This document shows positions 49,014-64,000 of a DNA stretch of 64,000 bases, piece after piece. The DNA is from an uncultured Pseudomonadota bacterium (GTDB lineage: Bacteria; Pseudomonadota; Gammaproteobacteria; Steroidobacterales; Steroidobacteraceae), in the NCBI GenBank assembly GCA_903879335.1, contig CAIRLC010000010.1, positions 62,001 to 126,000 of the forward strand, written 5' to 3'. Within the stretch, counting starts at the first letter, position 1. The number at the start of each line of letters is the position of its first letter. The translations under genes were made by a program, and so were the position numbers. The notes under the pieces are model-generated. The model made no database searches, was not told where the DNA came from, and saw only the letters and a program-made list of their open reading frames with translations.

Positions 49014-50507
49014 ATGCGCCGTCCGACACGCGCCCCGCTGTGGGCTCAATTGTTCTCATTGGACCCGCTGGGGCCGCTGACGATTCAGGCGCAATTGCGG
49101 GCCCAGATCGTCTCGGCGATTGGGGCCGGTCGGCTTGCCGCAGATGAAGCGATGCCTTCCAGTCGAGAGTTGGCCGAACACCTGAGTATTGCCCGTAATA
49201 CCGTGGTCAGCGCCTACGCGCAGTTGGCTGACGATGGTTACCTCGAGGCGCGTCCGCGCCGCGGCTACTTCATCAACCCACTGGCGTTGGCCATTAAGCC
49301 CTCGACCAAGGCCGCTCCCGTGGGCTCGATGACCGCGGTGGATTGGACCGAGCGCTTTCGAGTGCAACCGAGTCGGCAACGCAATATTTCCAAAGTGGCC
49401 GACTGGGAACGTTACGACTATCCCTTTATTTATGGTCAGTTTGATCCAAGCTTGTTCCCGGCCGCGGACTGGCGCACCTGTTGCCAAGAGGTGCTCGGCA
49501 AAACCGGGGCGCGCACCTGGGGGCAGGATCTCTTTACCCGCGATGATCCACAGCTGATCGATGAACTGCGCAATAAGGTCTTGCCCTTGCGCGGTGTCTG
49601 GGCCGATGCGGACGAAATTATCGTCACGATCGGCGCCCAACAGGCCTTATACCTATTGGCCGATCTCTTGGTTGGTAGCGACACGGTGGTCGGTCTTGAA
49701 AACCCGGGCTATCCCGATGCGCGCAATATTTTTGCACTGCGCACGAAGCGCTTAAAGCCATTGCCTGTCGACGCGCAAGGCCTCCAGATCGGGGCGGCGC
49801 TGAAGCACTGCAAATATGTCTACGTGACGCCCAGCCATCAGGCGCCGACCACGGTCACACTCCCGGTTGATCGACGGGTCGAGTTGCTGCGACGTGCCGA
49901 GCGCGATGATTTTTTGATCATCGAAGACGATTACGAGACCGAAATCAGTTTTTCAGGCCTACCGAACCCAGCGTTAAAAAGTCTGGACCGGTCGGGACGT
50001 GTGATTTATGTCGGCAGTCTCTCCAAGTCCTTTGCGCCGGGGATTCGGCTCGGCTATATCGTCGCACCGCGCCCACTGATTGCTGAATTGCGGGCGCTGC
50101 GGCGCTTAAATATTCGCCATCCTACGGCCTTCATTCAGCGCAGCATGGCGCGCTTTATTGCGCTTGGTCACTACGATTTATTGAGTCGCCGGCTGGTGGA
50201 TGCCCATCGCGAGCGCGCAAGGATTCTGTCGGCCTCGGTCAGTGAGTTTGGTCTCGAGGCCGCTCATGTGCCGGTGAACGGCGGATCGTCGGTGTGGTTC
50301 GAAGGCCCAGTGTGGCTGAACGCGCACGAATGGGCCGAATCGGTCCGCGGGGAGGGCGTGCTGATTGAGCCGGGGGATGTGCATTACATGGACGAGCGGC
50401 CGCCCTTAAATCGCTTTCGGCTCGGTTACTCCTCGATCCCTCGCAGCCGAATTCAAGAGGGCGTGAGGCGGCTCGCGCTGTCATTGGCGAAACTGCGCCC
50501 CACCTAA
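49014..50507 (+). CDS. tauR: MocR-family regulator, probable taurine regulator TauR
   Basis: A 497-residue regulator made of an N-terminal GntR-type winged helix (residues about 20-85, PSSRELAEHLSIARNTVVSAY) and a PLP-dependent aminotransferase-like domain. The Schiff-base Lys is in VGSLSKSFAPGIRLGY. MocR proteins sense amino compounds through PLP. TauR activates taurine catabolism genes in Rhodobacter and relatives. Here the gene lies directly upstream, on the same strand, of tauX-, tauY- and xsc-like genes, which supports the TauR call. The name rests on context, as MocR proteins are alike in sequence. Confidence 0.78.
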   Translation: MRRPTRAPLWAQLFSLDPLGPLTIQAQLRAQIVSAIGAGRLAADEAMPSSRELAEHLSIARNTVVSAYAQLADDGYLEARPRRGYFINPLALAIKPSTKAAPVGSMTAVDWTERFRVQPSRQRNISKVADWERYDYPFIYGQFDPSLFPAADWRTCCQEVLGKTGARTWGQDLFTRDDPQLIDELRNKVLPLRGVWADADEIIVTIGAQQALYLLADLLVGSDTVVGLENPGYPDARNIFALRTKRLKPLPVDAQGLQIGAALKHCKYVYVTPSHQAPTTVTLPVDRRVELLRRAERDDFLIIEDDYETEISFSGLPNPALKSLDRSGRVIYVGSLSKSFAPGIRLGYIVAPRPLIAELRALRRLNIRHPTAFIQRSMARFIALGHYDLLSRRLVDAHRERARILSASVSEFGLEAAHVPVNGGSSVWFEGPVWLNAHEWAESVRGEGVLIEPGDVHYMDERPPLNRFRLGYSSIPRSRIQEGVRRLALSLAKLRPT

Positions 50508-50561
50508 CTGGACCCATCGCCACCATTCGGCTGGTTCTACCCCGGCACCTTGGGAGCCCAT

Positions 50562-50589
50562 AGCATTCGATCCCATTATTCTGAATGCT
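50562..50589 (+). promoter_or_regulatory. Inverted repeat in front of tauX
   Basis: AGCATTC (50562-50568) and GAATGCT (50583-50589) form a 7-bp inverted repeat with a 14-base spacer. It ends just before the GGTGA ribosome-binding site of the tauX-like gene. It may be a regulator site or a small leader hairpin. I could not match it to a known TauR site. Confidence 0.35.
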
Positions 50590-50598
50590 GGTGAAATC

Positions 50599-50991
50599 AT
50601 GAGCATGACTGCCGATGCACAGGTCGCGCTGATCGCGCGTCTTTTTGACGCCTTCAACGCCCATGACGCTGACGGTGTCGGCGCATGCATGACGGACGAC
50701 GTGGTCTTTGATGCAGCCGTCGGCGCTGAAGTCTACGGCACGCGTACGATCGGCCGAACGGCCGTCGCAGCGGGTTTTGCCAAGACGTTTAAGGATTTGC
50801 CCGATGTGCGCTGGGACGATGTCACCAGCTATCCGGGCGCCGATGACTACGTGACGACGACCTGGGTGATGCGTGCTACGCGCCCCGATGGTCTGCGTCT
50901 GGAAGTGGAAGGCATTGATCTTTTCACGTTGAAAGATGGTCTCGTGTCCAACAAGCGCGCTTTCCGTAAGGAGCGCCCACTGCAGAAGTGA
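50599..50991 (+). CDS. tauX: SnoaL-like protein, probable small subunit of taurine dehydrogenase
   Basis: A 130-residue protein with a SnoaL/NTF2-like fold: the opening ALIARLFDAFNAHDADGV and the ending DLFTLKDGLVSNKRAFRKE are typical. GGTGA lies five bases before the ATG. In bacteria that use taurine dehydrogenase, a small protein of this kind (TauX) precedes the FAD subunit TauY. Here the FAD subunit gene starts four bases after its stop. The partner role follows from this position. The protein itself shows no catalytic motif. Confidence 0.65.
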   Translation: MSMTADAQVALIARLFDAFNAHDADGVGACMTDDVVFDAAVGAEVYGTRTIGRTAVAAGFAKTFKDLPDVRWDDVTSYPGADDYVTTTWVMRATRPDGLRLEVEGIDLFTLKDGLVSNKRAFRKERPLQK

Positions 50992-50995
50992 TGTT

Positions 50996-52378
50996 ATGAG
51001 TACCGCTCCACAGACTGCATACGATCCGCTGTACGATCCCCTGAAGGACGCGACCCCAGGTCACGGCCGAGAATACGCGCCAACGTACTGGGTCGATAGC
51101 GCGGGACCCGCTCCCGAGGATGACGGCCCGATCCGCGCTGACGTGGATGTCGAAGTGGCAGTGATCGGTTCGGGTTACACCGGCCTGTCGGCCGCCGTGC
51201 ACCTGGCCCGCGACCACGGCATCAGCGCCGTGGTGCTTGAGGCTAATCGTGTCGCCTTTGGGTGTAGCACCCGTAACGGTGGCCAGGGTCAGTTCGCGAC
51301 CGGACGTTTGAAGCGTTCGGGCTGGATCGACCGTTGGGGCGTTGATATCGCCCGTGGGATGCACGCGGAATGCATGGAAGCGTTTGATCTCTTCCGATCG
51401 CTGCTCGCTGAACCCTTGGTTCAGCCCGACGCCGTCGATGACGGACATATCTACGCGGCGCATCGGCCTTGGGCCCTTGAAAAACTCAAAGCCGAAGTGC
51501 AAGTGCTCAATGACGTCTTCAACTATCCAGCCAAAGTGCTGACGGCGGAAGAGACGCGCGAGCAGCACTTCTTTGACCGCGAATGCTGTGGCGCGCAGTT
51601 CGAACCCGATGGCGTGGCCGTGCACCCGGCGAAGTACGCGTTTGGTTTGTTGCGCCTGGCGCGCAGTCTCGGCGTGAAGGTACACCCGTCGAGCCCGGTC
51701 CAAGGTTGGCGTCGTCAGGGGGATCGTTACATCCTCTCAACGCCCGGCGGTGATGTACGTGCCAAGCGCGTCATTGTGGCCACCGCCGGCTACACGGCGC
51801 CGGGCCTGCATGCGCTGACCCGCCACCGGCTCTTTCCGATCCTGTCGAACTCGATCGTCACGCGTCCATTGAGCGACGACGAGATTGCCGATTGTGGGTT
51901 TAAGTCCGGAGCCTTCTACACCGATACGCGCATCCTCCGGCACTACTATCGCTTCATTGCGAGTGCTAAGCGCGTCCAGATCGGTAGTCGCAGCGCCGTG
52001 TACGGTCGCGATGCAGCCAATCCAAAGCACCTGGCCCGGTTACGCGGTGCGCTCGGGCGTAAGTTCCCGGCGCTGGACGGTATCGACCTCGACTACTCGT
52101 GGTGGGGCTGGGTCGACGTCGGCCACGACATGATGCCGCGGATTTTTAAGCCCGATGCGAATGAACATATTTATTACTCGCTCGCCTACGGCGGCAACGG
52201 AGTCATGTACTCCGCGCAGGCTGGGCGCCGCGTGGCGGCCTTGTGCGCAGGCCAAGCGATGCCGGCATTGCCGATTTTCCAGTCGGTCTTGCCGACGGAA
52301 GGCGTGTTAACGCCATTCCGTCGCCTCGGCCAACAGTTACTGTACATCTGGTATTTCACTAACGATGAGCGGCCCTAA
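50996..52378 (+). CDS. tauY: FAD-dependent amine oxidoreductase, probable large subunit of taurine dehydrogenase
   Basis: A 460-residue flavoprotein of the D-amino-acid-oxidase (DAO) superfamily. The FAD-binding motif is VAVIGSGYTGLSAAVHLA near residues 52-70, with NGGQGQF and the C-terminal GGNGVMYSAQAGR as further nucleotide-contacting segments. TauY oxidatively deaminates taurine to sulfoacetaldehyde. Placement between tauX-like and xsc genes supports this over the related gamma-glutamylputrescine oxidase (PuuB), which it also resembles. The start at 50996 was chosen since the earlier in-frame ATG lies within tauX. Confidence 0.75.
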   Translation: MSTAPQTAYDPLYDPLKDATPGHGREYAPTYWVDSAGPAPEDDGPIRADVDVEVAVIGSGYTGLSAAVHLARDHGISAVVLEANRVAFGCSTRNGGQGQFATGRLKRSGWIDRWGVDIARGMHAECMEAFDLFRSLLAEPLVQPDAVDDGHIYAAHRPWALEKLKAEVQVLNDVFNYPAKVLTAEETREQHFFDRECCGAQFEPDGVAVHPAKYAFGLLRLARSLGVKVHPSSPVQGWRRQGDRYILSTPGGDVRAKRVIVATAGYTAPGLHALTRHRLFPILSNSIVTRPLSDDEIADCGFKSGAFYTDTRILRHYYRFIASAKRVQIGSRSAVYGRDAANPKHLARLRGALGRKFPALDGIDLDYSWWGWVDVGHDMMPRIFKPDANEHIYYSLAYGGNGVMYSAQAGRRVAALCAGQAMPALPIFQSVLPTEGVLTPFRRLGQQLLYIWYFTNDERP

Positions 52379-52440
52379 TCGAACGCGTTTTGGGCGTGAT
52401 TTGTGCCGTAGGGATTGACCCGAACAAGGGGGAATTGCTG

Positions 52441-54216
52441 ATGAAGATGACGACTGAAGAGGCTTTCGTAAAGGTTCTGCAACGCCACGGTATCGAGCAT
52501 GCCTTTGGCATCATCGGTTCGGCGTTTATGCCGGTCTCTGACCTGTTCCCCAAAGCCGGTATTACCTTCTGGGACGTCGCCCATGAAACGAACGGCGGCA
52601 TGATCTGCGACGGATACACCCGCACGACCGGCAAGATCGCGATGGCGATTGCGCAAAACGGCCCTGGCGTGACCGGTTTCGTGACGGCGATCAAGACCGC
52701 GTACTGGAACCACACGCCAATGTTGCTCGTGACGCCGCAAGCGGCGAACAAGACCATCGGTCAGGGTGGCTTCCAAGAAGTGGAGCAGATGGCGCTCTTC
52801 CGCGACATGGTCTGCTACCAAGAAGAAGTGCGCGATGCGTCGCGCATTCCCGAAGTACTTAACCGCGTGATCTGCAAGGCGAAGCGCCTGTCAGGTCCTG
52901 CCCAGATCAATATCCCGCGTGATTTCTTCACGCAGGTCATTGATGTGGCACTGCCTGAAGTCGTGGAATTTGAGCGTCCGCAGGGCGGCGCTAAGGCGAT
53001 CGCCGAAGCCGCTGAGTTGCTCTCAAAGGCCAAGAAGCCCGTCATCCTGTCGGGTGCGGGCGTCGTGCTTGGCAATGCGATCCCGGACCTCGTGGCCCTC
53101 GCTGAAAAGCTGGATGCAGCCGTCTGCAACAACTACCAGCACAACGACTCCTTCCCAGGCAGCCACCGCTTGGCGGCCGGCCCACTGGGCTATAACGGCT
53201 CGAAGGCCGCGATGCGCCTGATTGCCGAAGCCGACGTCGTGCTCGCTTTGGGGACCCGCCTGAATCCGTTCTCGACACTGCCAGGCTACGGCCTTGATTA
53301 CTGGCCGAAGACGGCGAAGGTCATCCAGGTCGACATCAATGCCGACCGCATCGGGCTCACAAAGCCGGTGGCGGTGGCCATTTGCGGTGACTCCAAGCTC
53401 GTGGCGCGCCAGTTGTTGGCCCAGTTGGCGCCGACCGCGGGTGACGCGGGTCGTGCGGAACGCGTCGCCAAGATCGCGGCGGAAAAAGCCGCTTGGGCGA
53501 CGGAACTCGCTGGCTTGGATCATGAAGATGACGATCCAGGCACCGACTGGAACGCGGAGTGCCGGGCACGCGAGCCGGAGCACATGGCGCCGCGTCAGGC
53601 CTGGCGCGCCATCATGGCTGGATTGCCGAAGGACGCGATCATCTCCTCCGATATCGGCAACAACTGCGCCATCGGTAACGCCTACCCCTCCTTCGAGAAG
53701 GGTCGGAAGTACCTCGCGCCAGGTCTCTTCGGTCCGTGCGGCTACGGCTTTCCGTCGATTATCGGTGCGAAGATCGGTAACCCCGATGTACCGGTCGTCG
53801 GCTTCGCCGGTGACGGCGCCTTCGGCATCTCGATGAACGAGATGACCTCGGTGGGTCGTGACGAGTGGCCGGCGATCACGATGGTGATCTTCCGCAACTA
53901 CCAGTGGGGCGCCGAAAAGCGCAATTCGATCCTTTGGTACGACAACAACTTTGTTGGCACTGAGCTCGATCCGAACCTGTCCTACGCACGCGTGGCCGAA
54001 GGCTGTGGACACAAGGGTGTTTGTGCTCGCACCACTGAAGAATTGACCGCGGCCTTGCGCACCGCTTGTGAAGAACAGCAGAAGGGCATCACGACCTTCA
54101 TCGAAGTGCTGCTCAACCAGGAACTCGGTGAGCCGTTCCGTCGCGATGCGATGAAGAAGCCCGTCGTTGTCGCCGGCATCAGCCGCGACGATATGCGTCA
54201 GCAGATCGTCGAGTAA
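52441..54216 (+). CDS. xsc: Sulfoacetaldehyde acetyltransferase
   Basis: A 591-residue thiamine-diphosphate enzyme, the normal length for Xsc. It converts sulfoacetaldehyde and phosphate to acetyl phosphate and sulfite. The catalytic Glu region reads AHETNGGMICDGYTRTTGK, and the ThDP-binding segment is GFAGDGAFGISMNEMTSVGRDEWP. The YQWGAEKRNS and WYDNNFVGTEL stretches are typical of Xsc and unlike acetolactate synthase. The start at 52441 follows a GGGGGA site. An upstream in-frame ATG at 52390 lacks one. It lies 62 bases after the tauY-like gene and is followed by a terminator-like hairpin. No phosphate acetyltransferase gene is close. Confidence 0.95.
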   Translation: MKMTTEEAFVKVLQRHGIEHAFGIIGSAFMPVSDLFPKAGITFWDVAHETNGGMICDGYTRTTGKIAMAIAQNGPGVTGFVTAIKTAYWNHTPMLLVTPQAANKTIGQGGFQEVEQMALFRDMVCYQEEVRDASRIPEVLNRVICKAKRLSGPAQINIPRDFFTQVIDVALPEVVEFERPQGGAKAIAEAAELLSKAKKPVILSGAGVVLGNAIPDLVALAEKLDAAVCNNYQHNDSFPGSHRLAAGPLGYNGSKAAMRLIAEADVVLALGTRLNPFSTLPGYGLDYWPKTAKVIQVDINADRIGLTKPVAVAICGDSKLVARQLLAQLAPTAGDAGRAERVAKIAAEKAAWATELAGLDHEDDDPGTDWNAECRAREPEHMAPRQAWRAIMAGLPKDAIISSDIGNNCAIGNAYPSFEKGRKYLAPGLFGPCGYGFPSIIGAKIGNPDVPVVGFAGDGAFGISMNEMTSVGRDEWPAITMVIFRNYQWGAEKRNSILWYDNNFVGTELDPNLSYARVAEGCGHKGVCARTTEELTAALRTACEEQQKGITTFIEVLLNQELGEPFRRDAMKKPVVVAGISRDDMRQQIVE

Positions 54217-54226
54217 ATCGGCTGCA

Positions 54227-54260
54227 GGGGCGCCAGGGATGACCTTGCGCCCCCTTTCTT
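54227..54260 (+). terminator. Terminator-like hairpin between xsc and tauZ
   Basis: GGGGCGC pairs with GCGCCCC across a 13-base loop and is followed by a C/T-rich tail (CTTTCTT). It starts 11 bases after xsc. The exporter gene begins 24 bases further on, so its expression may be a reduced, read-through share of the operon. Confidence 0.6.
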
Positions 54261-54283
54261 AGGCCCTGAGACGGGGACTCACC

Positions 54284-55339
54284 GTGCACCTGAAAGATAA
54301 GCTCCCCGGGCTTGCGCTTGCCGCGATCGTCGCGAGTGCCTCAAAACTGTTGGCCGCGGCGCCCTGGGCCCAGGCCCACGGGTTCAGTCCGCTGACGCTG
54401 GCCATTGTTTTAGGCCTGCTGGCGGGTAATACCTTTTATCCGGCCATCGCCGCAAAAGCGGGAGCCGGCATCGGTTTTTCACGACAGACCATTTTAAGAA
54501 CGGGCGTCGTTCTTTATGGCTTCCGGTTGACCCTGCAACAAGTGGGCAGCGTGGGCTGGGCTGGTGTTTTGATTGACGCGGTCGTGGTCCTCATGACGGT
54601 GGTCATCGCCTACCAAGTGGGTACACGTTGGTTAAAAATGGACCGGACCTCGGCACTGTTGGTCGGATCCGGCAGCGCCATCTGCGGCGCGGCCGCGGTG
54701 TTGGCCACAGAACCTGTGGTGCGAGGCAAGTCGGAACAGGTGAGTGTCGCGGTCGCAGGCGTTGTCATTTTTGGCACGCTGTCGATGTTCTTATACCCAT
54801 TGCTGTACGCGCTGGATGGCGTTCGCGCCTACATCCCCGGCGGTCCACACGGCTTCGGCGTTTATATCGGTTCGACCATTCATGAGGTTGCCCAGGTGGT
54901 CGCCGCGGGTCGTCAGGTGGGTCCGGAGGCGGCAGGACCGGCCCTGATTGCCAAGATGACTCGCGTCTTCATGTTGGCCCCATTTTTGGTGGGCCTTGCG
55001 CTGTGGATGCGCGGTCGGGGCGAAGACCACGAGTCTTCAATGAGCACGAAGCAAGCCTTGGCCGCCGTGCCGACCTTCGCGTTTTATTTCGTTGGGGCGG
55101 TGTTCCTCAACTCACTCAATGCGGCGATGGGGTGGTTCTCCGCAGCCGTCACCGATGGTCTATTCAATGTGGCGGTCTTCTTGTTGTCGATGGCGATGGC
55201 GGCGCTCGGCATGTCCACCCACTTCGGTACCTTGCGCCGTGCCGGTGGTAAACCGCTGCTCCTGACCGGGATCTTATTTATTTGGTTAGTCGTGGGCGGC
55301 GCCGCACTGAATCACTACGTGTTAGGAGCGTGGCGCTAA
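54284..55339 (+). CDS. tauZ: Putative sulfate/sulfite exporter (UPF0324/YeiH family, TauZ type)
   Basis: A 351-residue membrane protein with about 10 hydrophobic segments and a GTG start after GGGGA. The family signatures are the GLLAGNTFYP opening, LRTGVVLYGFRLTLQQV and VGSGSAICGAAAVLATEPV. The family (Pfam PF03601, TCDB putative sulfate exporter) includes TauZ and CuyZ, found next to xsc-type sulfonate genes, where they are thought to export sulfite or sulfate. The chemistry is an assignment by genomic context in the family, not directly shown for most members. Confidence 0.82.
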   Translation: MHLKDKLPGLALAAIVASASKLLAAAPWAQAHGFSPLTLAIVLGLLAGNTFYPAIAAKAGAGIGFSRQTILRTGVVLYGFRLTLQQVGSVGWAGVLIDAVVVLMTVVIAYQVGTRWLKMDRTSALLVGSGSAICGAAAVLATEPVVRGKSEQVSVAVAGVVIFGTLSMFLYPLLYALDGVRAYIPGGPHGFGVYIGSTIHEVAQVVAAGRQVGPEAAGPALIAKMTRVFMLAPFLVGLALWMRGRGEDHESSMSTKQALAAVPTFAFYFVGAVFLNSLNAAMGWFSAAVTDGLFNVAVFLLSMAMAALGMSTHFGTLRRAGGKPLLLTGILFIWLVVGGAALNHYVLGAWR

Positions 55340-55341
55340 AG

Positions 55342-55362
55342 ACCCCGGCCTTAAGCCGGGGT
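55342..55362. terminator. Bidirectional hairpin between tauZ and paiB
   Basis: ACCCCGGC pairs with GCCGGGGT around a 5-base loop, immediately after the tauZ stop. It includes the last codons and TAA stop of the convergent paiB-like gene. It is GC-rich and compact but has no T-run. Confidence 0.65.
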
Positions 55363-55986
55363 GATCGGTTCCTGCGCCAAAACCGCAACGTGGGTAGGGC
55401 TCAGGCCATCGGCCGCGAGTCCTGCGCGCAAGCCCTGCCGATCGCTCGCCACGCGATTTTGGCTGGCTTTGAATTTCCCCACCATCGACGTCACCTCAAT
55501 GGTGAAGCCGACGATCGCGGCCAACATGCCCTCGATATAGTCAGGCGGCGCGTCCGATACCGCCCAAGGGTGGGCGCGGGGGCCCTCATGCCGGTTCGTC
55601 AGTTGGGTGACGATCTTCAGCAAGGGTTCAGGCTCGCGCGTCCATCGAATGTGGCCGCGCACATGCACCGCCTCATAGTTCCACGTCGGCACCGCTTTGC
55701 CGTGCTCGGCTTTGGACGGGTAGTGGTTCGGCGTGATGTAAGCATCAATCGCGCGAAAGACCGCGAGCACCTCACCGCCGTCGGCAACATGCTTGTGCAT
55801 CGGGTTTGCTCGGGCGATGTGTCCGAGCAATTCGAGTTTCCCGTCCCGTTCGACCAGTTCAACCGGGATGTGATCTGCGGTGGGTACGCCGTCCGCCAGG
55901 GTGATCAGCACGGCCAGCGGATGATCGCGGATGACGGGCGCCAGCAGGACTGGGTCATCGACGCGAAAGTGGTTGGGTAAGTACAT
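55351..55986 (-). CDS. PaiB-type FMN-binding negative transcriptional regulator
   Basis: A 211-residue protein. The opening MYLPNHFRVDDP and the segments HIARANPMHKHV, YITPNHYPSK and VPTWNYEAVHVRGH are the hallmark of the PaiB family (Pfam PF04299). Its founding member in Bacillus affects protease and sporulation genes, and family members bind FMN through a split-barrel fold. The target here is unknown. It stands between the exporter and permease genes, divergent from the permease, so control of the permease is a fair guess. Confidence 0.88.
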   Translation of the reverse strand: MYLPNHFRVDDPVLLAPVIRDHPLAVLITLADGVPTADHIPVELVERDGKLELLGHIARANPMHKHVADGGEVLAVFRAIDAYITPNHYPSKAEHGKAVPTWNYEAVHVRGHIRWTREPEPLLKIVTQLTNRHEGPRAHPWAVSDAPPDYIEGMLAAIVGFTIEVTSMVGKFKASQNRVASDRQGLRAGLAADGLSPTHVAVLAQEPITPA

Positions 55987-56114
55987 GCGGCGCGGCCTCT
56001 CAAGGATCAGACGAGCCGAAACGATGCCCTGACGTGATCGTGATGTACAGGTTATTTTCTTTACTACACGGACGGGACGCGTAATGCTTCCAAACGGGAG
56101 AGGGGATACAAACG

Positions 56115-57503
56115 ATGAGTGAACAAGAATTACCAAGCATCGATAGCGCCGAGACTGGGCTGCAGCGCTCACTGAAAGAGCGACATATGCGCATGATTGC
56201 GCTCGGCGGCGTCATCGGCGCGGGCCTCTTTGTGGGTAGCGGCGTCGTGGTGCAGGCGACCGGACCCGCCGCCGTTTTCTCCTTTGCGCTGACCGGACTC
56301 TTGGTCGTGCTGGTCATGCGGATGCTCGGCGAAATGGCGGCTGCGTTTCCGGCGGTGGGCGGCTTCTATGAGTACAACCGACTGGCCTTGGGCGAATTTG
56401 CCGGCTTCATGACCGGGTGGATGTACTGGTACTTCTGGATCATTGTGGTGGCCTTCGAGGCGGTTGCGGGTACCAAGCTGCTCGTCGGTTGGTTTGGAAG
56501 CTCGTTACCCGGCATTCAGCCGTGGGAATACACCCTCGGACTCACCACGGTGTTCACCATCGTGAATCTGCTGTCCGTGCGCTCCTGGGGTGAGGCTGAA
56601 TACTGGTTCGCATCGATCAAGGTCGCGGCCATCACGCTCTTTCTGGTCATCGGCGTCGTCGTCGTGCTCGGCCTTTGGCACGGCGTGCCAGGCGGTTTTC
56701 ATCTGCTGACCGAGAATGGTGGCTTCATGCCTAAGGGCATTGGTCCTGTGCTGACGGGTGCAGTGGCGGCCACTGGATTTTATTTTGGTTCCGAAATTGT
56801 CACGGTCGCGGCCGCTGAATCCGCAGAACCCGAGCGGGCGATTGCGCGGGCGACACAGTCCGTGGTGTCGCGCGTGCTGGTGTTTTACGTCGGTTCTATA
56901 TTTCTGGTGGTGTGCATCGTGCCGTGGAATACCCCGGCCATGGCCACCCCGTACGTCAGTGTCCTGGATGCGCTGCACGTGCCCTATGCCGGGACTGCGA
57001 TGGGCATCGTGATCCTGACCGCGGTGTTGTCATGCCTGAATAGCGGTGTCTTCGCCTCATCCCGCATGATGATGGCACTGGCGCGTCGCGGCGATGCGCC
57101 GAGTATTTTCGCGCGCTTGGACCGTCGTGGCGTGCCGGTGGCGTCCATCCTCGCCAGCATGACCTTCGCCTTTGTTGCCGTCTTCATGAACTACTTGTCG
57201 CCGGACAAAGTGTTCAAGTTTTTGGTCGACTCCTACGGCACGGTGGCTATCTTTGTGTATGTACTGATCGCCTTCGCGGAACTGGGCTTACGACGCCGTT
57301 TGGAGCGGGAGGCACCCGAGCGTCTGAAGGTGCGCATGTGGGCATTCCCATGGCTCACCATCCTCGCGATCGTCATGATGTTCTCGGTGCTTGGCGCCAT
57401 GGCATTTATCCCCGAGCAGCAGAATCCTTTGCTGTTCGGTCTGATCAGCGCCGCGGTGATGGCCTTAGGTTACCTCTTTTTTCGGCGCGGTCGGACGGCC
57501 TGA
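56115..57503 (+). CDS. Amino-acid permease of the APC superfamily (GABA permease-like)
   Basis: A 462-residue inner-membrane permease with 12 hydrophobic segments. The opening RSLKERHMRMIALGGVIGAGLFVGSG belongs to the AAT/GabP group of amino-acid:proton symporters. A GAGAGGGG site lies upstream of the ATG. No taurine or aminoethylphosphonate ABC importer is present in the window. This permease lies between the taurine genes and the phosphonate genes, so it could import the zwitterionic substrate of either pathway (taurine, or aminoethylphosphonate). That substrate call is inference. Confidence 0.85.
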   Translation: MSEQELPSIDSAETGLQRSLKERHMRMIALGGVIGAGLFVGSGVVVQATGPAAVFSFALTGLLVVLVMRMLGEMAAAFPAVGGFYEYNRLALGEFAGFMTGWMYWYFWIIVVAFEAVAGTKLLVGWFGSSLPGIQPWEYTLGLTTVFTIVNLLSVRSWGEAEYWFASIKVAAITLFLVIGVVVVLGLWHGVPGGFHLLTENGGFMPKGIGPVLTGAVAATGFYFGSEIVTVAAAESAEPERAIARATQSVVSRVLVFYVGSIFLVVCIVPWNTPAMATPYVSVLDALHVPYAGTAMGIVILTAVLSCLNSGVFASSRMMMALARRGDAPSIFARLDRRGVPVASILASMTFAFVAVFMNYLSPDKVFKFLVDSYGTVAIFVYVLIAFAELGLRRRLEREAPERLKVRMWAFPWLTILAIVMMFSVLGAMAFIPEQQNPLLFGLISAAVMALGYLFFRRGRTA

Positions 57504-57511
57504 TTGAGACA

Positions 57512-57537
57512 TACGGGGTGGGTCACTCCACCCCGTA
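57512..57537. terminator. Bidirectional hairpin between permease and cytochrome genes
   Basis: TACGGGGTGG pairs perfectly with CCACCCCGTA around a 6-base loop, eight bases after the permease stop. The TGA stop of the convergent cytochrome gene lies within it. Confidence 0.72.
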
Positions 57538-57816
57538 CTGGCGAACGAGGTAGTCGACAATTTTGCCGGCTTCTTCATCGTTGACGGGTGCACCGAAGGC
57601 CTTGGTCATCTTCTTGACCTCAGCCTCCCAATTGGCCCGCTTGAGGAATCCGCCGTTCATCTGGATGTAGTCGGCCGAATGACAGATGGAGCACCGTGCC
57701 ATCACCAGCGCGGTATCGGTATCGGGGCTGAGCGCAACCTTGCTCTCATCAGCCAGGGTGACACCGCTGATGCACAGTCCGAGGAATACCGCGCTGAGCA
57801 TTGAGACATTACGCAT
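57523..57816 (-). CDS. sorB: Periplasmic cytochrome c, SorB-like subunit of sulfite dehydrogenase
   Basis: A 97-residue protein with a signal peptide and one haem c site, CSICH, with a later Met (KKMTKAF) as likely sixth ligand. An excellent AAGGAGG site lies before the ATG. It starts 13 bases after the molybdenum sulfite oxidase gene, the arrangement of SorAB, in which the cytochrome subunit takes electrons from sulfite oxidation. Length and gene order favour SorB. A generic small cytochrome c cannot be excluded from sequence alone. Confidence 0.78.
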   Translation of the reverse strand: MRNVSMLSAVFLGLCISGVTLADESKVALSPDTDTALVMARCSICHSADYIQMNGGFLKRANWEAEVKKMTKAFGAPVNDEEAGKIVDYLVRQYGVE

Positions 57817-57829
57817 GGACGGATCCTCC

Positions 57830-59035
57830 TTAGACGACGGTCAGCGTGACCGCTTGGATCACGTTGTTGTGATAACCCGGGTTGTTAAAAATCAGTTCCG
57901 ATACCTGCGTGCTGCCCTGTCGATTCGTGGCGCGGGCCATCAGCACCAATGGCCCCGGATCCTGCGCGTTGAGACCGAACTGCCACGTCCGGAATGAAAA
58001 ACGACCCAGATCGTCGCCGAGATCCGCCACATTCCAGCTTCGTCCACCATCGCGCGAGACCTCAACACGGCGGATGCCGGCGCCTGAATCCCAAGCCAGG
58101 CCCTTCAAGGTCAGCGGGCTGCCGCGAGATACCCGCTGGCCATCGGCATGACTCGTGATCACGGAATTGACGACGATTTCCGTGATTGGCGTCGTGGCGT
58201 CGTTTTCTTGTGAGATAAATCGATCAGCGAACGCGAACTTACCTTTTGGAATGCGGTATGCGCTCGCCATCCAGAAATTGGCCAGTGGCTTACGCAGCGC
58301 TTGGATCGAAACCACTTGTTTCATCCAATAGGTCGCTGTCCAACCCGGCACGATCAAGCGTGCCGGGTAGCCATTGTGATGGGGCAGAGGCTCACCATTC
58401 ATCGCATACGCAATGATGGTGTTCTCGTCCACGGCCTTCCAGACCGGGATGCTCTTGATGAAATCAGGCGTCACATCCAGCGCGGGCCGATCCGCCCCAT
58501 CAAACGCAATTTCGACCGTCTCTTTCGACAGTCCAGCGCGCTCCAAGACGTCTTTGAGTCGAACACCGGTCCAGCGCGCATTGCCCATTGCGCCGTAGCC
58601 CCATTCAACCCCGGGGACGTGAGGGTCGGAAAGACCGCGACGATTGCCTGAACATTGGCAGACGGCCACGAGTTCGACCGCTTCAAAGTCGCTCTTGAGT
58701 TGGTCGAGGGTCAGCTCATAGGGTTTCGTCGCGCCGTCACCCCCAATCGTCAGCCGCCATTCCCGGGCGTCGACCTCAGTGATACCCATCAAATGCCAAC
58801 GAACGAAGAATCTGTCGTTTGGGGTAATGGCCGAACTGAAATCTGCGAGCGGGGTTTCGTAATTCGGGGGTCGGTAAGAGCGCTTAATCAGGGGCTGTTT
58901 GCCCGGCAGTCGTTCGAGCGTCGCTGAGTCGATGGCGCCTTGGGGTAGGGCCGCGCGGGCCACTTGGCCTGCGATACCGGTGCTGAACGCGAGGCCCCCG
59001 AGGGCGGTCTGTAGAAGTGTGCGACGTGTCGTCAT
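57830..59035 (-). CDS. sorA: Periplasmic molybdenum sulfite dehydrogenase, SorA-like
   Basis: A 401-residue enzyme of the sulfite oxidase family. The start at 59035 gives a Tat signal (TTRRTLLQTAL) and has GGGGG seven bases upstream. The molybdenum-ligating Cys128 is in VCQCSGNRRG, the plant/bacterial sulfite-oxidase signature. The rest holds the molybdopterin domain and a C-terminal dimerisation domain with VSRDGGRSWN. It oxidises sulfite to sulfate, probably passing electrons to the SorB-like cytochrome. Sulfite would come from Xsc. It lies downstream of phnY in the same direction, so it may also be read from the phosphonate operon. Confidence 0.83.
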   Translation of the reverse strand: MTTRRTLLQTALGGLAFSTGIAGQVARAALPQGAIDSATLERLPGKQPLIKRSYRPPNYETPLADFSSAITPNDRFFVRWHLMGITEVDAREWRLTIGGDGATKPYELTLDQLKSDFEAVELVAVCQCSGNRRGLSDPHVPGVEWGYGAMGNARWTGVRLKDVLERAGLSKETVEIAFDGADRPALDVTPDFIKSIPVWKAVDENTIIAYAMNGEPLPHHNGYPARLIVPGWTATYWMKQVVSIQALRKPLANFWMASAYRIPKGKFAFADRFISQENDATTPITEIVVNSVITSHADGQRVSRGSPLTLKGLAWDSGAGIRRVEVSRDGGRSWNVADLGDDLGRFSFRTWQFGLNAQDPGPLVLMARATNRQGSTQVSELIFNNPGYHNNVIQAVTLTVV

Positions 59036-59067
59036 GTGGTGCCCCCTGCAATGTTTCCCGTAGCCCC

Positions 59068-59099
59068 CGCCGTAGGCCAAGTGTCTTCGACCTACGGCG
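59068..59099. terminator. Hairpin between phnY and sorA
   Basis: CGCCGTAGG pairs with CCTACGGCG across a 14-base loop, about 10 bases after the phnY stop on the minus strand. No T-run follows, so it may attenuate rather than end transcription into sorAB. Confidence 0.5.
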
Positions 59100-59109
59100 T
59101 TCCTGCAAC

Positions 59110-61766
<2,657 letters not shown>

Positions 61767-61814
61767 TCAAAATCGTTGTAATTGAGGGCGAGTTAAACAC
61801 GAAGCCGCCTAAAT

Positions 61815-61829
61815 TGTCGACAGTTGACA
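61815..61829 (-). promoter_or_regulatory. Probable GntR operator in front of phnA
   Basis: TGTCGACAGTTGACA contains the palindrome TGTCGACA and a TGTC-N7-GACA inverted pair. It differs at a single base from the site upstream of the gntR gene at 63980-63994. FCD-type GntR proteins often bind T-G-T-C/G-A-C-A palindromes. It lies in the 84-base gap between the FAD oxidoreductase gene and phnA. Confidence 0.65.
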
Positions 61830-61838
61830 GAATGAGAT

Positions 61839-63248
61839 CTAGGCGGAGGTCTTGTCGGCTTTACCTGCGCTTGCGGCGAGGCTAGCAAGCCGGCGGTCCC
61901 ATGGACGAACGGCGCGGCTTTCATCCTCGGCGCGTTCCTGTCGGCGGATGGCATTGCGCACGATCATCGAACCGACATAGCGGATCGGTTCGGGCGGGAA
62001 TCGACCCAGCGGGCCGGCGGTTAAGGGGCTGCGCGTCCAGTCGTTGTCGAGACCCAAGGCCAATGACGACAGGATTTCGCCGCCCATCCGCGTCGGACCC
62101 ACGCCGTTTCCGGAGTAACCAAAGCCGTACCAGACGTTACTGTGGCCGGGTAACGACCCAAAAAAAGGCAGGCCGGTGACTGAGCGATCCGATGGGCCGT
62201 TCCAGCTTGCCGCGATGGGGGTGTGAGAGAATTCCGGGACGAAACTGCGCAGCGCCTTTTGCAGGGATTCGGCATAGGGAGACGGTTGATCAAACACATC
62301 CAGCATCCGACCGCCGAATGCAAAGGTATTGCCGCCCTTGCCGAGCATCAGTCGGCCGTCGCTGGTGCTCCGGTAGTAGTGTACGAAGGTGCGCGAATCC
62401 AGCACTGAGATGCCGCGATCCAGTCCACTGCGGGTCAGCGCTGTCGGATTGGGTTCGGTAATCACCATATCCGACGAGACGATCGCGATCGAGCGCCGGA
62501 AGCTTGGAAACAGCGTACCCATCCAAGCGTTCACGGCGATGACCGCACGATCGGCGGTGATTCGCCCGCGAGGCGTCTCTAACTGCACGCGCTGACCGCC
62601 CGTGAGCCGACTCAAGGGCGTACCCTCATAGAGTCGCACGCCAAGGTCGCGCGCCACGCGGCGCAGGCCGCGCACCAGTTTCCCCGGTTGCACGCTGGCT
62701 GCCACCGGCGAGTACCAGCCTTCCAAGTGTGCACGGGACCCTGCTCGACGGCGCACCTCATCGGTTGCTAAGCGCGTCCACTGCGAGAGACCACGCTCCT
62801 CAAGCGCGCGCATGACTCCGTCTGAGGCGCCGACCTGCGCTTGGGAGGTCGCGGTATAGAGCGTGCCGTCTAGCCGCCAGTCGCAGTCAATGCGGTGCAA
62901 GCGCACAAAGGCGTCGATATCCAAGATCGCTTGCTCTGATGCGCGGACCAGTCGTGCCGCTTCCGTCTCGCCATAGAGGCGGACGAGTGTGGGCAGTTTG
63001 GTCGACCACGACAGTACGCAGCCGCCATTACGACCGCTCGCACCGCCACCGACGATGTCAGCATCGATGATCACGACGTCAAGATCGGGTTGCTGCTGTT
63101 TCGCGCGGATCGCGGTCCAAAACCCCGTGTACCCGCCACCGACAATCGCCAGATCAGCGCGTATTGCAGCGCTGAGCGGTCGCGCGGCAAGTTCAGTTTC
63201 GCCGGACAACGCTTCGGCGATCCAAAAGGGTCGGGCCTGGCGATTCAT
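61839..63248 (-). CDS. FAD-dependent aminophosphonate oxidoreductase-like enzyme (PbfC/PbfD type)
   Basis: A 469-residue flavoprotein of the DAO superfamily. The FAD motif is LAIVGGGYTGFWTAIRAKQ near residues 33-51, with GGGASGRNGGCVL and the C-terminal YGFGYSGNGVGPTRMGG. The opening FWIAEAL is common in the putative aminophosphonate oxidoreductases found beside phosphonate genes. Known relatives (PbfC, PbfD) turn aminoethylphosphonate or its N-methyl form into phosphonoacetaldehyde, the substrate of PhnY. It overlaps the gntR gene (ATGA), with phnA and phnY downstream. The exact amine substrate is open. Confidence 0.8.
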   Translation of the reverse strand: MNRQARPFWIAEALSGETELAARPLSAAIRADLAIVGGGYTGFWTAIRAKQQQPDLDVVIIDADIVGGGASGRNGGCVLSWSTKLPTLVRLYGETEAARLVRASEQAILDIDAFVRLHRIDCDWRLDGTLYTATSQAQVGASDGVMRALEERGLSQWTRLATDEVRRRAGSRAHLEGWYSPVAASVQPGKLVRGLRRVARDLGVRLYEGTPLSRLTGGQRVQLETPRGRITADRAVIAVNAWMGTLFPSFRRSIAIVSSDMVITEPNPTALTRSGLDRGISVLDSRTFVHYYRSTSDGRLMLGKGGNTFAFGGRMLDVFDQPSPYAESLQKALRSFVPEFSHTPIAASWNGPSDRSVTGLPFFGSLPGHSNVWYGFGYSGNGVGPTRMGGEILSSLALGLDNDWTRSPLTAGPLGRFPPEPIRYVGSMIVRNAIRRQERAEDESRAVRPWDRRLASLAASAGKADKTSA

Positions 63249-63937
63249 CGCGGCGGCCGCGCGCTGACAGGATCAGCCGCCTTGTGCATGCGCGCCCGGC
63301 TATCGGCTGCGTGCGTTCGCAATAGCCGACCTGCACGCGTCGGATCCCGCGCTTCGATGGCCTCCACAATCGCGGCGTGCTCGGCGATCGACACAGCAAA
63401 GCCACCGCCCTCAGTGAGGCCGCGCAATCGGTAGAGCAGCAGTTCCTTGGTCAGTCGGCGGTAAGTCGCCGACAAATGGCTATTGCCCACAGCGTCCACC
63501 AAGGCATCGTGAAAGCTCAAGTTGAGCGCGTGATAACGCTTGATATCCGCCGCCTGCGTGGCGTCAGCCATCTCCGCAAGTAAGGACTTGAGTTTCAGCA
63601 AAGCCTGCTCGTCGATTCTCTCCGCCAGCCGACGACCAATGAACTCATCCAACACTTCACGCAAGTCATAGACTTCATCGGCCTCGACGAGCGTGACCTC
63701 TCGGACGAAGACGCCACGATTGCGTTCGGCGCGCACGATGCCGCATTCCTCAAGCGCACGCAGTGCTTCGCGTACCGGGCCGCGACTGGTGCCAAAACGC
63801 TCTGCCAAGGCCACTTCGTTGATCCGCTGTCCCACGGGCAGGTCACCGGCCAGGATCAGGCGCTCAATCTCGGCTTGCACCACCGAGGGCAGGGAATGGG
63901 CCTGAAGGATTTGCAGGGCGCTGGCGGGAGCACTCAT
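63245..63937 (-). CDS. GntR-family (FCD subfamily) regulator of the phosphonate genes
   Basis: A 230-residue regulator. The winged helix lies at residues about 20-80 (AERFGTSRGPVREALRALEECGIVRAERNRGVFV), followed by an all-helical FCD effector domain with the metal/ligand residues typical of this group (LNLSFHDALVDAVGN; LTEGG; SIAEHAAIVEAIEARD). It is the first gene of the operon and overlaps the FAD oxidoreductase gene by four bases. It probably represses the phosphonate genes until a pathway intermediate binds. The candidate operator at 63980-63994 lies about 43 bases upstream of its start, suggesting autoregulation. Confidence 0.88.
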   Translation of the reverse strand: MSAPASALQILQAHSLPSVVQAEIERLILAGDLPVGQRINEVALAERFGTSRGPVREALRALEECGIVRAERNRGVFVREVTLVEADEVYDLREVLDEFIGRRLAERIDEQALLKLKSLLAEMADATQAADIKRYHALNLSFHDALVDAVGNSHLSATYRRLTKELLLYRLRGLTEGGGFAVSIAEHAAIVEAIEARDPTRAGRLLRTHAADSRARMHKAADPVSARPPR

Positions 63938-63994: not shown

Positions 63995-64000
63995 CTTGAG

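Follow-up and report, generated by a model that had tools for sequence, protein, structure and literature searches.

The 64,000-nucleotide stretch of DNA analyzed here (hereafter the window, positions 62001-126000 of contig C10 in genome G000) carries genes for taurine catabolism on its plus strand and, next to them on the minus strand, genes for the catabolism of aminoethylphosphonate (AEP) (Table 1). This pairing is a real and recurrent new arrangement of known parts: each of the two pathways is known, and what is new is their joining, with gene runs that mix the two. An earlier reading of the window (the original prediction) gave a gene list whose members and coordinates are confirmed by gene calls and family scans, except that SorA falls below its curated cut-off and phnW was counted as missing.

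Table 1. Features of the taurine and phosphonate halves, in window coordinates unless stated otherwise
Feature	Position	Strand	Support
tauR-like MocR regulator	49014-50507	+	GntR head, aminotransferase-like body
TauR-like operator (predicted), two CTGG boxes, 23-bp period	50508-50540	+	tuned scan: 2 mismatches in 20, 0/300 shuffles as good
tauX-like NTF2/SnoaL small subunit	50599-50991	+	domain match
tauY-like FAD (flavin adenine dinucleotide) taurine dehydrogenase subunit	50996-52378	+	likely ATG just past tauX stop; longest frame from 50936
xsc, sulfoacetaldehyde acetyltransferase	52441-54216	+	TIGR03457 935 bits, cut-off 676.4; longest frame from 52390
tauZ/YeiH-type putative sulfate exporter	54284-55339	+	TIGR00698 291 bits, cut-off 232.6
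FMN_bind_2 (PF04299) protein gene, between tauZ and gabP	55351-55986	-	domain match
gabP-type amino acid permease, candidate for the import of taurine, perhaps also of aminophosphonates	56115-57503	+	TIGR01773 503 bits, below cut-off 678; PF00324
sorB-like small c-type cytochrome, CSICH (CxxCH)	57523-57816	-	cytochrome match below gathering score; probably secreted
sorA-like sulfite dehydrogenase with molybdopterin domain and leader of twin-arginine type	57830-~59035	-	longest frame from 59080; leader read from translation
phnY, phosphonoacetaldehyde dehydrogenase	59110-60537	-	TIGR03250 832 bits, cut-off 635.65
phnA, phosphonoacetate hydrolase	60534-61766	-	604 bits, cut-off 407.55; 566 bits to PDB 1ei6 PhnA over 400 residues
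pbf-type FAD oxidoreductase for AEP or N-methyl-AEP (predicted)	61839-63248	-	TIGR03329 764 bits, cut-off 632.8
phnR, GntR/FCD regulator	63245-63937	-	TIGR03338 304 bits, cut-off 271.5
phnW, longest frame	G000:C10:125996-127168 (window 63996-64000 = first five bases)	+	NF010006 572 bits, cut-off 296; TIGR03301 472 bits, cut-off 360.8

The order of the taurine half (MocR regulator, NTF2 subunit, FAD subunit, xsc, sulfate exporter) matches that of the taurine locus of Rhodobacterales (tauR, TRAP, tauXY, xsc, tauZ, pta), from which the window differs in having a GabP-type permease instead of TRAP genes, no pta at the locus, and an added phosphonate cluster together with sorAB. The same half matches a plasmid locus of Limimaricola, where MocR, TRAP and usp genes are followed by NTF2, FAD, xsc, the sulfate exporter and pta; the NTF2-FAD-xsc order is common to both, and the tauY product of the window is 63.6% identical to that of the xsc-adjoining gene in Limimaricola. 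The TauX-TauY pair next to xsc is assigned by this homology and gene order, with no TauXY family model among the matches listed. For the regulator, PdxR was the only model past its cut-off (345 bits vs. 320, among the best 25 of 57 NCBIfam models), and the TauR name is given because of gene context and the operator described below. When Pta was sought in the window's genome, the sole PTA_PTB match was an NADP malic enzyme, and contig C7 holds an acetate kinase (AckA) whose frame runs on into a phosphate-propanoyltransferase domain (L181:859-2664). The antisense FMN_bind_2 gene keeps its position between tauZ and gabP in the related stretches L155 and L164.

The gene content of the phosphonate half is that of the known PhnWYA pathway plus a pbf-type FAD accessory enzyme, as PhnW, PhnY and PhnA are clustered and all score above curated cut-offs. 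The original prediction counted PhnW as missing, which is an artefact of the window edge: phnW lies directly beyond the window end, divergent from phnR, and its likelier start is also past that end. In an alignment of PhnA to residues 8-407 of 1ei6, the VDGCE, TFTNPNN/SFTNPNN, TTDYxQHKH, TADHGMN and SHGG blocks are retained, and we take these five blocks to hold the active site. The genes phnW, FAD enzyme, phnA and phnY occur as in the PhnWYA pathway with a pbf FAD enzyme set out in the consulted portions of PMC10590968 and PMC10574752, and the window differs from that pathway in that the phnA-phnY run goes on into sorAB-like genes, with xsc genes next door or, in relatives, within the run.

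Between the two halves, the best PDB match of the sorA-like protein is the SorA structure 2blf (314 bits), and the small haem protein adjoins it. A near relative has a class A beta-lactamase-like gene between its aminotransferase and sorB (L155:10519-11475, below the cut-offs of the 25 best families). The GabP-type permease scores below the cut-off of TIGR01773, so its substrate is not assigned by that model.

Recurrence and gene order in relatives

We searched for both marker genes in the window's family (code f1, probably Steroidobacteraceae), in its order and class, and in a second order (code f156, 41 genomes). PhnA was above cut-off in 34 of the order's 396 genomes (33 in f1) and in 5 of 369 genomes of the class; in three other PhnA genomes of the class (G354, G214, G295) Xsc lies on other contigs. 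Xsc matches at E 1e-150 occur in 49 of the 396 genomes (38 in f1), and Xsc is above cut-off in 22 of the 33 f1 genomes with full phnA. The two genes lie within 15 kb of each other in 10 of these 22, spread over three genus codes (G749 1.2 kb, G643 1.3, G645 3.8, G719 3.8, G000 6.3, G516 7.3, G667 8.8, G736 10.7, G696 13.1, G551 14.5), at 21 kb in one (G554, 21.4 kb), at 205 kb in one (G474), and on different contigs in the remaining 10. Random placement would put 0.21 of the 22 within 15 kb, and among the 12 genomes with both genes on one contig 4.9 would be expected vs. the 10 seen (P 4e-4), although such linkage P values overstate the case because related genomes are not independent. Outside the 22, G753, whose partial phnA sits at the end of a contig, has xsc 4 kb away, and two further genomes with partial phnA (G728, G722) have xsc on different contigs.

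A similar search of f156 gave PhnA at E 1e-100 in 23 of 41 genomes (21 above cut-off), and 20 of those 23 have Xsc at E 1e-150 (18 above cut-off). The genes share a contig in six of the 20, with gaps of 6.5 kb (G762), 9.0 (G772), 14.6 (G265), 35 (G787), 36 (G775) and 37 (G776), i.e., 3 of 20 within 15 kb. The original prediction proposed that recurrence of xsc and phnA within 15 kb in several genera would support a joint module, and such recurrence is seen in f1 (three genus codes) and again in f156. By these linkage counts, uncorrected for common ancestry, the adjacency also goes beyond chance.

The arrangement of the linked genes varies considerably, and several genomes mix the two pathways in same-strand runs. 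G749 has phnW-xsc-ackA-yeiH-gabP on one strand vs. phnA-phnY-sorA-sorB on the opposite strand, with five junctions overlapping by 4-11 bp and two with 34-bp gaps, phnW to xsc being 34 bp. G643 has phnW-xsc-ackA-gabP opposite phnA-phnY, with 92 bp from phnW to xsc, and in G645 and G719 the order xsc-gabP-ackA-phnW-phnA-phnY runs all in one direction (G753 matches up to phnW). G657 carries phnW-tauR-aminotransferase opposite phnA-phnY-sorA-sorB, and an xsc start at the edge of another contig. An FAD gene followed by phnA-phnY-sorA-sorB is found in G000, G667 and G516, and in G000 the genes phnR, FAD gene, phnA, phnY, sorA and sorB form a single same-strand run. In G554 the taurine run continues after gabP with the gene for PbfA (660 bits, cut-off 525), an enzyme acting on a hydroxylated aminophosphonate, while the PbfA gene of G736 is divergent from gabP. 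The permease gene is beside or near xsc in all 13 long f1 stretches with xsc (the window, L155, L156, L157, L159, L160, L162, L163, L164, L165, L167, L168, L173). A gabP relative (61-63%) also precedes phnR-phnA-phnY in G585 and G649, two genomes lacking xsc, and in a tree these relatives branch apart from the xsc-linked permeases.

The first step of the taurine half appears to be interchangeable. The tauY gene adjoins xsc in G000, G551 and G554, and G516, G736, G657 and G474 have a class III aminotransferase that shares 81-91% identity with the G667 protein (5 of 15 genomes searched, G667 included); in G516 and G736 its gene lies on a different contig from the island. A 66-67% relative of this aminotransferase adjoins tauR in f156. 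At 12 loci with a second f1 type of Xsc, several with short flanks, an IclR-type regulator is accompanied by an AptA-like aminotransferase in nine, stands alone in one, and both are lacking in two; the AptA-like protein of L160, the only one of these scanned, scores 591 bits (cut-off 500). By gene content, then, an aminotransferase is what stands in for TauXY in relatives. The original prediction had both pathways start with an FAD enzyme and not a transaminase, and this fails for the phosphonate half because phnW is adjacent; an FAD enzyme opens the taurine half alone, and even there it is replaced in relatives.

The Xsc proteins at these loci include remote types (INDEPENDENCE), those of G719, G645, G753 and G696, and also of G265, being 45-47% identical to the window's, while the Xsc of G762 is of the window's type. 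Both remote types (~47% identity) are linked to phnA. In the Xsc tree the G265/G772 type grouped with the second f1 type, a placement that carries a long-branch warning for the L169/L202 type. Linked phnA genes are spread over several separate branches of the PhnA tree, and labeling its members as linked or other requires 10 changes (with undecided cases included in “other”). A single founder cluster for all linked cases is disfavored by the remote Xsc types and the several arrangements.

Other genes also recur around the two halves. A TonB receptor and a TPR-sulfotransferase protein are found between or beside them (L157/L158, L161/L162, L163, L186, L194, L197). After phnY, some loci continue with an MFS transporter, a GlnA-like ligase, a semialdehyde-type dehydrogenase and an iron alcohol dehydrogenase (L160:14660-19999; also L156, L170, L182, L183, L187, L199), a run that is only partial at some loci, is present in genomes without xsc too, and possibly serves another phosphonate or omega-amino acid branch.

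TauR-like operators

The published TauR consensus, direct repeats of CTGGACYTAA (PMC5320631, in the portion consulted), occurs across the window at chance level (47 sites vs. 42.8 expected). A strict scan with this consensus gave 23-bp box pairs for L155, L157 and L163, each time in the gap from tauR to xsc or to tauX, and no box pair in the window's gaps. We then tuned the box consensus on the sites of these three relatives and scanned 35 gaps, which makes the scan partly circular. With the tuned consensus, none of 300 shuffles was as good as the pairs in the tauR gaps of the window, L155, L164, L157, L162 and L163, or as that in the gap before the L155 aminotransferase; there was no clear pair in the three f156 tauR-xsc gaps or in those of L171 and L173 (best 0.05 of shuffles). 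The phosphonate-side gaps in the tuned scan gave none below 0.1 of shuffles. Predicted operators thus stand ahead of taurine genes and not of the phosphonate genes examined, and therefore shared TauR control is not supported; TauR control common to both halves was rejected as a candidate on this ground. Scans of the window for promoters (1 site vs. 4.1 expected) and terminator-like sites (19 vs. 13.9) were uninformative.

Interpretation of the joint locus

The joint locus looks like a real module and not a chance neighborhood, because the pairing recurs in relatives with the pathway genes often shuffled into common runs. We consider it probable, judging from sequence comparison, that it is a joint catabolic island for taurine and AEP, two C2 zwitterions differing in their acid group, with the halves tied by a shared pool and shared parts. 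The GabP-type permease would bring taurine into the cell, TauXY would remove its amino group oxidatively, and Xsc would cleave the resulting sulfoacetaldehyde to acetyl phosphate and sulfite; the SorAB-like proteins may then oxidize the sulfite, and TauZ may export the sulfate. On the other side, PhnW would convert AEP to phosphonoacetaldehyde, with the FAD enzyme handling N-methyl forms, PhnY would oxidize the aldehyde, and PhnA would split the product into acetate and phosphate, these reactions being taken from the respective families. The halves may stay together because of the common substrate pool and common parts (permease, sulfite and acetate end steps), as we infer from the recurrence and the mixed same-strand runs, and we do not attribute their joining to one known regulator of both. 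The joint module of the original prediction is thus partly supported, by the linkage and the mixed runs, and loses its parallel of two FAD-initiated pathways.

A number of observations weigh against a joint island, in addition to the relatedness of the genomes counted. In 10 of the 22 genomes phnA and xsc are on different contigs (G629, G705, G743, G522, G689, G571, G673, G657, G615, G617), and the halves of G474 are far apart. Each marker also occurs alone: 13 of the 38 f1 genomes with xsc at E 1e-150 have neither full nor partial phnA, and at that threshold xsc is lacking from 11 of the 33 f1 genomes that hold full phnA. The 80 nearest named phnA loci, whose titles often give Burkholderiales-type genera and whose flanks are in many cases shorter than 10 kb, show xsc, sought at the locus only, in three cases (L038, L040 and L042, contigs of G667, G749 and G643, all f1). 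No gabP was seen beside xsc in five second-order stretches (L169, L202, L203, L205, L206), and the operator scans gave no TauR-like site in the phnR/phnW, phnW/phnA and phnY-sorA gaps covered, nor ahead of the gabP of the window. Finally, the window's SorA scores 426 bits against an NCBIfam cut-off of 600 and is therefore SorA-like only, by that model.

A stronger form of the joint island, in which a single integrated module mineralizes C2 amino-sulfonates and amino-phosphonates through one permease, and in G643 and G749 one transaminase (PhnW) feeds both Xsc and PhnY-PhnA, seems to us unlikely. We give a similarly low chance to the possibility that two independently useful accessory clusters hitch-hike in one flexible region, inherited or transferred together without a functional tie. 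Such hitch-hiking is consistent with the patchy occurrence of both clusters in the family, with the lack of a common operator in the gaps scanned, and with a phn stretch of 10.8 kb from phnW that is 98% identical in DNA between the contigs of G689 and G657 (L170:8899-19723, L171:3284-14108), which have different genus codes, pointing to transfer or a mis-binned contig. Because of this match G689 is not taken as a separate case in support of phnAY-sorAB, and it is still counted as a different-contig case. Hitch-hiking is harder to reconcile with the linkage of phnA in differing arrangements and to remote Xsc types, and with same-strand runs that mix both pathways and whose genes overlap by 4-11 bp or are 34-92 bp apart.

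It is also conceivable, if rather doubtful, that enzymes are shared, with PhnW (possibly PhnY) acting on the sulfur analogue as well, so that one transaminase would serve both pathways, at least in genomes whose xsc run begins with phnW. In G643 and G749 phnW lies directly before xsc, there is no match at E 1e-80 to the class III aminotransferase used in the search, and no tauY in the examined stretches; other deaminases may lie elsewhere in both genomes. The PhnW of G643 and G749 is set apart only by one residue (I vs. V, L or F in 36 other rows) and one end position, so a PhnW adapted to taurine was rejected for want of telling residues in the comparison. Substrate discrimination is moreover known in the phosphonate pathway, since the tested pbf FAD enzymes, which oxidize N-methyl-AEP best and in some cases AEP too, are inert on taurine (PMC10590968, in the portion consulted).

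That the phosphonate half serves external phosphonoacetate or N-methyl-AEP, with sorAB attached by position alone, is very unlikely: the unbroken run from phnR to sorB in the window and the N-methyl-AEP preference of the tested enzymes (PMC10590968, in the same portion; the PbfB/C/D subgroup of the window's enzyme is not assigned) would fit, but phnW adjoins this half, and all six f1 genomes with sorAB after phnY carry xsc, albeit at P 0.07 given 22 of 33, or 0.11 for five without the doubtful G689.

The joint catabolic island remains the preferred reading. The original prediction knew of no described locus with both pathways side by side, and no paper on a joint taurine-phosphonate locus was among the matches listed in the open-licence literature. 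The TauR regulons of Suvorova and Rodionov (PMC5320631) resemble the taurine half in joining TauR with tauXY, tpa, xsc, ackA or pta and tauZ, with GabP as an additional member, and the consulted portion of their main text has no word starting with “phosphon”. Conversely, the words “taurine” and “sulfonate” are absent from the examined text of PMC10574752. The only paper found to name both aldehydes (PMC6754898, again in the portion consulted) treats the pathways in separate sections.

Sulfonates and phosphonates are mostly handled as separate nutrient streams, and a recurrent coupled locus predicts bacteria that free both sulfate and phosphate from analogous substrates by means of common parts. 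An xsc gene adjoining phnA would serve as a marker for this coupling in metagenomes, and the loci offer natural sets of enzymes and permeases for the study of discrimination between sulfonates and phosphonates.

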